From positions 620,001 to 684,000 of the forward strand of contig NZ_AUHO01000006.1 of NCBI RefSeq assembly GCF_000423225.1: 64,000 nucleotides of DNA, given 5' to 3'. The DNA is from Kaistia adipata DSM 17808 (GTDB lineage: Bacteria > Pseudomonadota > Alphaproteobacteria > Rhizobiales > Kaistiaceae). This document shows positions 27,483-36,369 of this stretch, piece by piece. How positions within the stretch are numbered: the stretch's first letter is position 1; each line of letters opens with the position of its first letter. The notes below the pieces were generated by a model, which saw nothing but the letters and a program-made list of their open reading frames with translations, had not been told where the DNA came from and made no database searches. Both the position numbers and the translations under genes were made by a program.

Positions 27483-28964
27483 TCAATGACTTGGCGCCGC
27501 GGCCGTTCCGTCCTTGTCGTGCGTGCCGAAGCGCTCGACCATGGTGGCGCTCGCCGCGTTGAGGCCGACCACCTCCACCGTCAGGCCGCGGGCCCGCGCC
27601 TTCAGCACCACCTTGTCGAGCGCGGCGATCGCCGAAATGTCCCAGAAATGCGCCGCGCCGACGTCGAAGACGACGCGCTCGACCGGCTCCTGCAGGTCGA
27701 CGGACTCCGACAGCGTTCCGGCGGAGGCGAAGAAGACCTGGCCCTCGACGCGATAGGTCCGGGTCTTGCCGTCCGCCGACAGCACCGAGGTCACGCGGCT
27801 CAGGCGCGCCACCTTGCCGGCAAAGAACACGCCCGAGAGGAGGACACCGACCAGAACGCCCTTGGCGAGGTCGTGCGTCGCGACCACCGTGCCGACCGTC
27901 GCCAGCATGACGATGGAGCTGGGCACCGGGTTGCTGCGGAGCCGCGCGATCGAGCGCCACTGGAAGGTGTTGATCGAGACCATGACCATCACCGCCGTCA
28001 GGGCGGCGACGGGCACCACCGCCAGCAGATCCTGCAACGCCACCAGCAGCACCAGCAGGAAGACGCCGGCGGTCAGCGTCGAGAGCCGCCCACGCGCGCC
28101 GGAGGAGACGTTGATCACCGACTGACCAATCATGGCGCAGCCGCCCATGCCACCGAACAGCGCCGAGGCGATGTTGGCGGCGCCCTGCCCCGCGCATTCG
28201 CGGTTCTTGTTGCTCGGCGTGTCGGTCATGTCGTCGAGGATCTGCGCGGTCAGGAGCGACTCGAGCAGGCCGACGGCGGCGAGCGTCAGCGCGACCGGCG
28301 CGATGATGCGCAGCGTGTCGAGATTGAACGGCACGTCCGGCAGCGCGAAGCTCGGCAGCGCCGAGGGAAGTTCGCCGAGATGGGCGACAGTGCGGACGTC
28401 GAGGCCGAGCGAGACGGCGACGATCGTGACGACGATGATCGCCACCAGCGGCGACGGCACGGCACGGGTGAAGCGCGGCAGGCCGTAGATAATGGCGAGG
28501 CCGAGCGCGATCAGCCCGTAGGTGGCCGGCGGCACGTTCACCAGTTCCGGCAGTTGCGCCATGAAGATCAGGATGGCCAGCGCATTGACGAAGCCGGTCA
28601 TCACCGACTGCGAGACGAAGCGCATCAGCCGCCCGAGTTTCAGCAGCGCCGCGACGATCTGGAACACGCCCATCAGGATGGTCGCGGCGAAGAGATACTG
28701 GATGCCGTGGTCGCGGACGAGACCGCTCATCAGCACGGCGGTCGCGGCGGTGGCGGCCGAGATCATCGCCGGACGGCCACCGGTGAAGGCGATGACGATG
28801 GCGATCACCACCGAGGCATAGAGGCCGATCTTGGGATCGACGCCGGCGATGACCGAGAAGCCGATCGCCTCGGGGATGAGCGCGAGGGCGACGACGAGGC
28901 CGGCGAGGAAATCGCGGCGCATGTTGGAAAACCAGTCGCGCTGGACGGTGGCAAGCCTGTTCAT
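27483..28964 (-). CDS. SulP family inorganic anion transporter with STAS domain
   Basis: This 493-residue protein has the SulP membrane domain: [50 protein letters not shown], and [25 protein letters not shown], over about 12-14 helices. A C-terminal STAS domain follows ([26 protein letters not shown]). SulP proteins move sulphate, bicarbonate or other anions, usually with H+ or Na+. The start at 28964 ([11 protein letters not shown]) gives the correct beginning; a longer reading to 29039 overlaps a structured leader and is rejected. The gene has an apparent promoter at 29110-29138 and an untranslated leader of about 140 nt with two stable hairpins, so cis-regulation by RNA is likely. Confidence 0.93.
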
Positions 28965-29103
28965 GGGATTTCTGACTGAGCAGCAGACGGGACATGTCGA
29001 CACGGCCTTTGCGGCGGTGCGGAGTTCCATCGCTGTCATCTGCGTGGTCCGGCGGATCGGCGGCCGGAAGAGCCACCCGGATTCGCACCGGGTCCTGTCG
29101 AAT
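28965..29103 (-). ncRNA. Structured 5' leader of the SulP gene, candidate cis-regulatory RNA (sul1-like)
   Basis: Between the predicted transcription start and the SulP ATG the minus strand folds into hairpin P1, ACCCGG/CCGGGT with a 7-nt loop (29075-29093), and hairpin P2, TCCGGC/GCCGGA with a 9-nt loop (29048-29068), followed by further pairing potential. A conserved RNA motif named sul1 has been described upstream of SulP genes in Alphaproteobacteria; I recall the association but cannot test the sequence against its model. The P1 loop contains TGCGAAT, which resembles a tRNA T-loop, but the rest is not a tRNA. Confidence 0.5.
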
Positions 29104-34336: not shown

Positions 34337-34525
34337 TCCGATTTCCCCGTGCGGATCGTTGCGGATCAACCTGACCGCGAAGGCCCGATCGCCTCTGCAT
34401 CCTGACGGCATGCTGCCCGATTGGGCAATATTGCAGTGCAACAATTATGCAGAATCGATTGCTGCTCTGCATCATATGCAAGCCAGCCATGCGCTTTCTC
34501 GCAGTGCTCGTTTTCGGCGGCTTCC

Positions 34526-34532
34526 CCTATAT
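34526..34532 (+). promoter_or_regulatory. Candidate -10 element (CCTATAT) for the DUF1127/small-RNA transcript
   Basis: CCTATAT lies 81 nt upstream of the DUF1127 start. Its C-rich left side resembles RpoH-type -10 elements of Alphaproteobacteria, and the equivalent Rhodobacter transcripts are RpoH-dependent. The -35 region (GCTCG about 15 nt upstream) is weak, so this is tentative. Confidence 0.35.
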
Positions 34533-34612
34533 TCGGATCAACAAGGACGGCGCCACCCAAACAGATCGCCGTCGATGACGCAGTAGTCCGATTGTCCGAA
34601 GGGAAAAGAAAA

Positions 34613-34765
34613 ATGGCCATGAACGTCCTCGCCTCCTACAAGACCTGGCGCAAGTATCGCGAGACCTACGGTGAGTTGATGCGCTTGACCAATCGCGAGC
34701 TGAATGATCTCGGCATCAACCGCGCCGACATCTCGCAGATCGCCAAGCAGACCGCCGGTTACTGA
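34613..34765 (+). CDS. DUF1127 small protein (CcaF1-like)
   Basis: This 50-residue protein, [20 protein letters not shown] then [26 protein letters not shown], is a full-length DUF1127 (YjiS-like) protein: an aromatic/basic N-terminal helix and the conserved LxxLsdreLxDiGisRxdI core. Small DUF1127 proteins are Arg-rich RNA-associated factors; in Rhodobacter sphaeroides one of them (CcaF1) is encoded directly upstream of the CcsR small RNAs and affects their processing. Exactly that arrangement is seen here, because three CCTCCTCCC stem-loops follow within 20 nt. The start at 34613 is supported by AAGGGAAAAG upstream. Confidence 0.88.
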
Positions 34766-34784
34766 TCCAGAACGGAATTCGCAC

Positions 34785-34808
34785 GGGACGAACCTCCTCC
34801 CTCGTCCC
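34785..34808 (+). ncRNA. CCTCCTCCC stem-loop 1 (CcsR/cuckoo-type small RNA)
   Basis: The stem GGGACGA/TCGTCCC (7 bp) presents the 10-nt loop ACCTCCTCCC (34792-34801). It begins 20 nt after the DUF1127 stop. The loop is complementary to Shine-Dalgarno sequences. Confidence 0.75.
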
Positions 34809-34816
34809 CGCGATAC

Positions 34817-34849
34817 GGCGCCAGCGAACCTCCTCCCTCGCGAAGCGCC
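34817..34849 (+). ncRNA. CCTCCTCCC stem-loop 2 (CcsR/cuckoo-type small RNA)
   Basis: An interrupted stem GGCGC..GCGA/TCGC..GCGCC presents the same 10-nt loop ACCTCCTCCC (34828-34837). Stem sequence and length differ from hairpin 1, while the loop is identical. Confidence 0.75.
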
Positions 34850-34859
34850 ACCCAAAGAG

Positions 34860-34891
34860 AACGCCCGTCGACCTCCTCCCCGACGGGCGTT
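34860..34891 (+). ncRNA. CCTCCTCCC stem-loop 3, also the Rho-independent terminator
   Basis: The 11-bp stem AACGCCCGTCG/CGACGGGCGTT again presents ACCTCCTCCC as its loop (34871-34880) and runs directly into TTTCTTTT, so this hairpin ends the DUF1127 transcript as well as carrying the third motif copy. Confidence 0.8.
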
Positions 34892-34962
34892 TTTCTTTTG
34901 TCCGCTCGGCTTCGCCTTTTGCGCGGTTGTCGGAACGGCTGCGGCGCAATAATCTCCGCGCC

Positions 34963-36369
34963 ATGAAAACAGACCCCATTCACATCATCGGCGGCGGTCT
35001 CGCCGGATCCGAAGCCGCCTGGCAGATCGTCAATCGCGGCATTCCCGTCGTCCTGCACGAGATGCGCCCCGTCCGCGGCACGGACGCGCACAAGACGGAC
35101 GGCCTGGCCGAGCTCGTCTGCTCCAACTCGTTCCGTTCGGACGATGCCGAGACCAATGCCGTCGGCCTGCTGCACGCCGAACTGCGCATGGCGAATTCGC
35201 TGATCATGCGCATGGGCGACAGCAACCAGGTGCCCGCCGGCGGCGCGCTCGCCGTCGACCGCGAGGGCTTCTCGCAGGCCGTCACCAAGGCGCTCGAGGA
35301 TCACCCGCTCGTCACCATCGACCGTCGCGAGATCGACGGCCTGCCGCCGGCCGAGTGGGACAACGTCATCATCGCAACCGGCCCCCTCACCTCGCCCGGC
35401 CTTTCCGAGGCGATCCGCGGCCTGACCGGCGCCGATTCGCTCGCCTTCTTCGACGCCATTGCGCCGATCATCTATTTCGACTCTATCAACATGGACGTCG
35501 CCTGGTTCCAGTCGCGCTACGACAAGGTCGGCCCCGGCGGCAACGGCGCCGACTACATCAACTGCCCGATGGACGAGGCGCAGTACAACGCCTTCCTCGA
35601 CGCGCTGATCGCCGGCGACAAGACCGATTTCAAGGACTGGGAAGCCTCGACGCCCTATTTCGACGGCTGCCTGCCGATCGAGATCATGGCCGAGCGCGGC
35701 CGCGAGACGCTGCGCTTCGGCCCGATGAAGCCCGTCGGCCTGACCAATCCGCGCAATCCGACCGTCAAGCCGCACGCCATCGTCCAGCTCCGCCAGGACA
35801 ATGCGCTCGGCACGCTCTACAACATGGTCGGCTTCCAGACGAAGCTGAAATACGGCGCCCAGACCGACGTGCTCCGCATGATTCCGGGCCTGGAGAACGC
35901 CCAGTTCGCCCGCCTCGGCGGCCTGCACCGCAACACCTTCCTCAATTCACCGAAGCTGCTCGACCCGCTGCTCCGCCTGAAGGCGGAGTCGCGCCTGCGC
36001 TTCGCCGGCCAGATCACCGGCTGCGAGGGCTATGTCGAGTCGGCCTCGATCGGCTTGCTCGCCGGCCGCTTCGCCGCCGCCGAGCGCCTCGGCGAGGTGC
36101 CGGTGCCGCCGCCGGCCACGACCGCCTTCGGCGCCCTGCTCGGCCACATCACCGGCGGCCATCTCGTCGACGAGGAAGCCGGCAGCCGTTCGTTCCAGCC
36201 AATGAACGTCAATTTCGGCCTGTTCCCGCCGGTCGAGATCCCGAAGGAGCCGGGCGTCAAGCTGCGCGGCAACGACAAGGCGATCGCCAAGAAGAAGGCG
36301 CTCACCGCCCGCGCCCGCGCCGACGCTGCCGCCTGGCTGAACGGCCCGGCCTCGGTAGCGGCCGAATAG
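34963..36369 (+). CDS. trmFO: Methylenetetrahydrofolate--tRNA-(uracil-5-)-methyltransferase TrmFO
   Basis: TrmFO makes 5-methyluridine at position 54 of tRNA using methylenetetrahydrofolate and FADH2. The 468-residue flavoprotein starts with the FAD-binding motif [18 protein letters not shown] and contains the family stretches [18 protein letters not shown] (with a catalytic Cys), [10 protein letters not shown]-type sequence (here [11 protein letters not shown]), [11 protein letters not shown], and [14 protein letters not shown] (second conserved Cys). The start at 34963 leaves the dinucleotide-binding motif at residue 7, as expected; a longer frame to 34927 is not needed. TrmFO replaces TrmA in many Alphaproteobacteria. 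Confidence 0.96.

Follow-up and report, generated by a model that had tools for sequence, protein, structure and literature searches.

A short DUF1127 gene and three anti-Shine-Dalgarno-type hairpins in Kaistia adipata: an αr14/CIN1-type locus with a putative LsrB/VtlR-like promoter box

What kind of small-RNA locus is formed by three consecutive hairpins behind a 50-codon DUF1127 gene in Kaistia adipata DSM 17808, and which regulator would switch it on? The hairpins carry an identical loop and lie in a window (the whole stretch of DNA analysed) of 64,000 nucleotides, and an initial annotation had taken them for an anti-Shine-Dalgarno RNA locus of the CcsR/cuckoo type, the usual anti-Shine-Dalgarno being ACCUCCU. 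The locus is, on sequence grounds, an αr14/CIN1 locus, that is, a known kind of small-RNA locus, in Kaistia, and it is highly probable that an LsrB-activated transcript gives from it both the small DUF1127 protein and an anti-Shine-Dalgarno RNA. Its elements are the following:

34432..34440, + strand: upstream dyad TGCR-N-YGCA (TGCAGTGCA), starting at -107 (genus promoter alignment)
34468..34490, + strand: LysR-type (LsrB/VtlR-like) box, TGCATCATATGCA (T-N11-A, starting at -71) running into AGCCAGCCAT (promoter alignment)
34504..34509, + strand: -35 element of non-TTG type, GTGCTC (43 aligned genus promoters)
34527..34532, + strand: -10 element CTATAT, 17 nt past the -35 (promoter alignment)
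34613..34765, + strand: short DUF1127 protein, 50 aa (PF06568, E 8.4e-13)
34774..34895, + strand: αr14 small RNA, full length 1-123 of RF02344 (66.1 bits, cut-off 58.8, E 1e-9)
34779..34813, + strand: hairpin 1, loop ACCTCCTCCC at 34792-34801 (predicted fold and covariation)
34817..34849, + strand: hairpin 2, loop ACCTCCTCCC at 34828-34837 (predicted fold and covariation)
34857..34894, + strand: hairpin 3, intrinsic terminator with U run, loop ACCTCCTCCC at 34871-34880 (predicted fold and covariation)
34963..36369, + strand: trmFO-like gene of the GIDA family (PF01134, E 4e-94; the name trmFO is our own reading)

The first part of the question is one of family membership, and here the initial annotation was largely borne out. 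Motif search and fold place the loop at exactly the three positions listed, with the third hairpin as terminator; the upstream gene is indeed a 50-codon DUF1127 gene according to PF06568, and the RNA scores above the curated cut-off over the full RF02344 model. In all three hairpins CCUCCUCCC is unpaired and the stems are variable, as in the description of αr14 as three hairpins with identical CCUCCUCCC and highly different stems (PMC10746234), with which a review agrees, where NfeR1 is placed under RpoD and has six copies in Sinorhizobium meliloti (PMC7143759). The short DUF1127 gene stands directly 5' of the hairpins, with the first CCTCCTCC motif 27 nt past its stop codon, which is the layout described for CIN1/cuckoo loci (PMC10253847). 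The fusion of the last of three units to the terminator had been suspected of being a variant arrangement, a reading that was rejected, the RF02344 consensus itself being made up of three hairpins that have one loop motif in common and end in the terminator hairpin. The Kaistia locus itself thus amounts to an added genus for the known αr14 family. In a scan returning 29 loci, the nearest one belongs to a Hyphomicrobiales metagenome bin (88% over the DUF1127 protein), followed by Kaistia granuli, K. defluvii and K. terrae. The trmFO-like gene lies outside the RNA locus and is a conserved neighbour, adjoining an αr14 match in 14/14 genus genomes and also in 12/13 of the remaining family genomes that have such a match.

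The second part of the question concerns the promoter, for which 43 genus loci were compared (42 linked to a DUF1127 gene, plus L133, discussed below). We infer a transcription start near 34539; the -35 reads [GC]TGCTC in 35 of the 39 genus promoters that could be placed and is followed by a CTANNT-like -10. Upstream, TGCR-N5-YGCA is present in 43/43 loci (1.7% of shuffled upstream regions have the box anywhere), a count that is only descriptive because the box was read off the same alignment on which it was counted. It starts at -71 in all 38 promoters whose core promoter was placed freely, and this spacing, when fixed, fits 39/43; among other genera of the family it is found in 8/10 DUF1127-linked loci, 7 of them with the core promoter at the same distance, plus or minus one base. 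As for published sites, LsrB activates NfeR1 via TGCA-N6-GCAT, a T-N11-A box at -72 to -60 (PMC10746234), to which TGCATCATATGCA at -71, with its perfect TGCA half-sites, corresponds; the site GCAT-N3-TG-N3-T, located at -61 to -49 in PabcR1 (PMC8844928), has a counterpart at the right place in the window, which departs from it at two positions, and is exact at locus L002 of the same genome. The places of both published sites are taken up here by one overlapping element.

How specific is this element? In the 4.84-Mb genome, its strict extended form (TGCR-N5-YGCA-N3-CWGSCAT) has 3 perfect matches, which are the three αr14 loci from which that form was drawn. Allowing one mismatch adds 10 places, compared with 6 for the reversed control when up to one mismatch is allowed. 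A looser form (TGCR-N5-YGCA-N4-WG-N-CAT) is present in 39/43 genus loci and missing in 4. Outside the genus (27 loci, i.e., the 29 fetched minus two genus loci), it stands at most 700 nt upstream of the αr14 RNA in 11/27 and is missing in 16/27, the controls giving 1 on the opposite strand, 1 and 0 on the two strands downstream and a shuffle mean of 0.003. Independent support for the box comes from its agreement with published sites, from the lack of any further exact match in the genome and from the 11/27 outside the genus. The dyad starting at -107, which sits 36 nt 5' of the LysR-type box in the window, is a possible second regulator site: it is at -107 or -106, and 35-36 nt from the box, in 37/38 genus promoters with a placed core promoter. 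An NtrC-like TGC-N11-GCA was also observed at 34411-34427 (-128) and in 3/43 genus promoters, that of the window included.

Should the locus nonetheless be regarded as a heat- and oxidative-stress operon of the CcsR type, read by RpoH as in R. sphaeroides? That was the control proposed initially, and the layout and loops are the same as in the R. sphaeroides operon, which has an RpoHI/RpoHII promoter (PMC10253847); moreover, the -10 reads CCTATAT in the window and some other promoters, as in the RpoH1 consensus of S. meliloti (PMC8844928). However, that consensus has CTTGAA at -35 (PMC8844928), whereas TTG was found there in 0/39 placed promoters of the 43 examined, and the LsrB/VtlR-type box present instead, conserved and of the activator type, is not accounted for by RpoH alone. 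RpoH control of this kind is thus improbable, although, given that some -10 boxes (CCTATAT) resemble that of S. meliloti RpoH1, RpoH may have a minor role.

A candidate for the alternative regulator is encoded in the genome, where a gene for a LysR-type protein lies directly 3' of trxB (TIGR01292, 406 bits). The match of its product to PDB 9HH1 spans all 296 residues (E 4e-127), and 9HH1 is the structure of LsrB from Agrobacterium tumefaciens (PMC11975290), so that both position and protein are those of an LsrB orthologue. The trxB-vtlR order is described as well conserved, and VtlR as a direct activator of abcR1, vrsA and atu1667 (PMC7486931); three DUF1127 genes are likewise positively regulated by VtlR (PMC12595884). 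The conserved switch points to the redox-linked LsrB rather than to a heat-shock factor. Of the cysteines, the one aligned with C273 is kept and the counterparts of C144, C236 and C244 are not, hence redox sensing may differ here.

Two other RNAs were observed along the way. AbcR (RF02345) gives only 24.3 and 23.0 bits in this genome, with a cut-off of 40; the match of 23.0 bits is a weak αr15/AbcR-like RNA (L186:3843-3983) just past the LsrB gene, which contains CTGTTCCCCTCT and, in a loop, a single CCTCCTCCC. As the position directly after the LsrB/VtlR gene is the published one for AbcR in A. tumefaciens (PMC7486931), this RNA is likely to be AbcR-like, also in view of CTGTTCCCCTCT. Within the window, a sul1 RNA (RF03058, 76.2 bits) lies at 29043-29098 on the - strand, just 5' of an ORF (27483-29039, - strand) that looks, from our own reading of its translation, like a SulP-type sulfate transporter.

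Regarding the hairpins themselves, CCTCCTCCC has 3 copies in the 64-kb window, counting both strands together, all of them in the three loops; shuffled windows hold 0.90 on average, and since 6/100 shuffles reach 3, it is the clustering in loops that is unusual and not the copy count. The 130 nt from 34766 to 34895 fold with -56.0 kcal/mol, versus -36.05 (sd 3.55) in 200 shuffles (z -5.6). The idea that different stems carry the same loop holds for the loops, but not for wholly different stems: around the loop, hairpins 1 and 2 have 16 identical bases in common (CGAACCTCCTCCCTCG), which makes the stems less unlike than claimed. Among the 42 DUF1127-linked genus loci, 99/126 predicted loops are exactly ACCTCCTCCC (29/42, 39/42 and 31/42 for hairpins 1, 2 and 3, respectively); 14/126 are one base off and 13/126 more than that, mostly long or short first loops. 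Covariation was assessed on 31 of these 42 loci (30 distinct), leaving out 7 that had under three motif hits and 4 whose first loop is long, and two-sided changes appeared in 13/26 pairs. Paired cells make up 99.2% of that alignment, compared with 39-58% in slid controls, for a structure predicted from the very alignment on which it was scored; cells with two-sided changes number 52, against 10.5 in shuffles, with 0/500 shuffles as high, while another measure, that of further pair types, was unremarkable (89/500 shuffles). Relatives keeping the stems and losing the loop would have spoken against selection on the loop, and the opposite was found across the genus loci, where loops stay and stems change by compensation, in line with the original claim.

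This array is not restricted to one locus or one species. K. adipata itself has three αr14 loci over the cut-off (of 5 matches at E<=1), each with a DUF1127 gene, and the DUF1127 proteins of the two others are 71% and 67% identical to that of the window. All 14 genus genomes have 2-5 αr14 matches, 47 in total at E<=0.001, and 46 of these could be fetched (the missing one, G215:C106, is at a contig end), a DUF1127 gene being directly 5' in 42/46; L098, L114 and L131, which score 31.9-36.3 bits, under the cut-off, and have no DUF1127, were set aside as too weak. Among family genomes, 27/28 have a match at E<=0.001 and 22/28 one over the cut-off; in the order, 63/199 genomes have a match, 29 of them over the cut-off. 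Outside the genus, L008, L009 and L011 show two or three tandem αr14 units behind two DUF1127 genes. As to the bare motif, CCTCCTCCC has 37 sites genome-wide, compared with 74 in the reversed control, and 7 of the 37 lie inside the three αr14 loci; stems were scored for 27 of the other 30, three being only folded. One of the scored sites is the loop of a hairpin with an 11-bp stem past amtB in the same genome (L004:1565-1595, - strand), which was dismissed, its loop being absent from the 13 other genus genomes (1/14); in the remaining 26, the motif is flanked by at most 5 contiguous pairs.

Would it suffice to regard the DUF1127 protein as the selected product, with hairpins acting only as terminator and RNA stabilisers? 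Short DUF1127 proteins of A. tumefaciens act via protein contacts (PMC12501420), and in Mesorhizobium the loci L044-L046 combine the gene with the box's second half but show no three-hairpin array (0-1 CCTCC in 330 nt). Against this stand the loops kept while stems vary, the αr14 loci of other families that have the box and no DUF1127 hit (4 of the 11 outside loci with the box, the other 7 having a hit nearby, one of them weak at E 6e-4) and L133 (970-1180, genome G130), where box, core promoter and three hairpins are present and the DUF1127 gene is absent. Compared with L106 of genome G212, L133 is 91% identical upstream and 82% downstream and lacks about 202 bp, a gap that by alignment opens just past the predicted start site and closes at the stop codon; G130 keeps 6 other DUF1127 matches elsewhere. 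A role for the protein alone is accordingly unlikely. With the gene cleanly missing and promoter and hairpins intact, L133 has the stand-alone layout of NfeR1, and this genus-mate shows the loss of some 202 bp, including the whole DUF1127 gene, between box and hairpins as a step in what could be the history of a cassette: there is about an even chance that one LsrB-controlled promoter cassette carries, across the order, two separable cargoes, the short DUF1127 gene and the αr14 RNA. The joint locus would then be the ancestral state, from which loss of one half gave rise to lone RNAs such as NfeR1 and to lone DUF1127 genes such as atu1667.

Alternatively, the loops might bind a protein (DUF1127 or another) as a sponge or maturation signal rather than mRNA. 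This is very unlikely: while CcaF1 is an RNA-binding protein that promotes the maturation of CcsR (PMC10253847), the silencing of a reporter by NfeR1 is lost once its three anti-Shine-Dalgarno motifs are mutated, and DUF1127 has 0 occurrences in the paper on NfeR1 (PMC10746234). Lastly, that such loops can arise by chance is apparent from the lone, non-conserved CCTCCTCCC hairpin past amtB, but hairpins of chance or repeat origin have a next to negligible probability here, contradicted by the orthologous positions kept across the genus with compensation.

With an LsrB-activated αr14/CIN1 locus as the preferred reading, the directly established elements are the sequence, the predicted structure with its covariation, the family membership, the promoter conservation and the presence of the regulator gene, while transcription, LsrB binding, processing, targets and a DUF1127 role in maturation are what we infer. 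Transcription would begin near 34539 at a sigma-70-type promoter whose -35 is poor and which is turned on by a LysR-type protein, most probably the LsrB/VtlR orthologue encoded beside trxB. The single transcript would encode the 50-aa DUF1127 protein and, behind it, contain the three hairpins, of which the last acts as terminator. Release of the hairpins from the mRNA is probable by analogy with Rhodobacter CcsR, whose co-transcript is processed by RNase E with the help of the DUF1127 protein CcaF1 (PMC10253847). Three interchangeable ACCUCCUCCC loops could then pair with G-rich ribosome-binding sites and block the translation of several mRNAs, in the way that the anti-Shine-Dalgarno motifs of NfeR1 have been shown to silence mRNAs (PMC10746234). 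The target prediction proposed for such sites, in which 33 of the 37 CCTCCTCCC sites were scanned for the perfect 9-nt complement (GGGAGGAGG) ahead of a start codon, gave six ORF lines at five sites, none judged a real gene start, and a pattern search of the draft genome for the 16S 3' end gave no match.

What does this add to the known systems? The most useful addition is the promoter comparison, which joins the work on NfeR1 and LsrB with that on VtlR and DUF1127 and that on CcsR and DUF1127; its prediction is that protein and RNA are both driven by LsrB. In a literature search of partial coverage, no paper containing both NfeR1 and DUF1127 was found and none joined NfeR1, DUF1127 loci and LsrB in one scheme, which is no proof of novelty; for Kaistia and small RNAs, titles and the starts of abstracts held nothing on an αr14-type locus. 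Whether short DUF1127 proteins have RNA or proteins as their partners has been called an intriguing puzzle (PMC12501420), and for atu1667 the choice between protein and RNA action is left open (PMC7486931). The puzzle becomes testable in loci that have both halves, or one, under the same promoter.

The three systems each share part of this locus. Like the present locus, CcsR1-4/CcaF1 of R. sphaeroides combines a DUF1127 gene and several hairpin RNAs of the same kind in one unit with a 3' terminator, and CcsR1-4 share the loop motif with this locus; the Kaistia locus differs in having three hairpins and not four RNAs, a protein of 50 aa and not 71 aa, and a LysR-type box instead of a TTG-type -35. 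The DUF1127 genes activated by VtlR/LsrB (atu1667 and three in Brucella) encode, as here, a short DUF1127-type protein, and CAAGCCAGCCATGCG of the window agrees by eye with the reported VtlR motif CAATGCAGCCATGCA (PMC12595884) at 12/15 positions; unlike the Kaistia gene, they are not tied to αr14 hairpins in the published passages that deal with them. NfeR1 of S. meliloti, the founder of αr14, has the same three hairpins with unpaired CCUCCUCCC and variable stems, the third being the terminator, and an LsrB box at -72 to -60 that is alike to the T-N11-A box starting at -71 in the window. The -35 differs (GTGCTC in the window versus CTTAGAC in NfeR1), and the NtrC-like TGC-N11-GCA is at -128 in the window versus -116 in NfeR1, the element shared genus-wide being the shorter dyad at -107. 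Finally, NfeR1 is a stand-alone RNA of 123 nt, whereas in the window a DUF1127 gene lies between the promoter and the hairpins.
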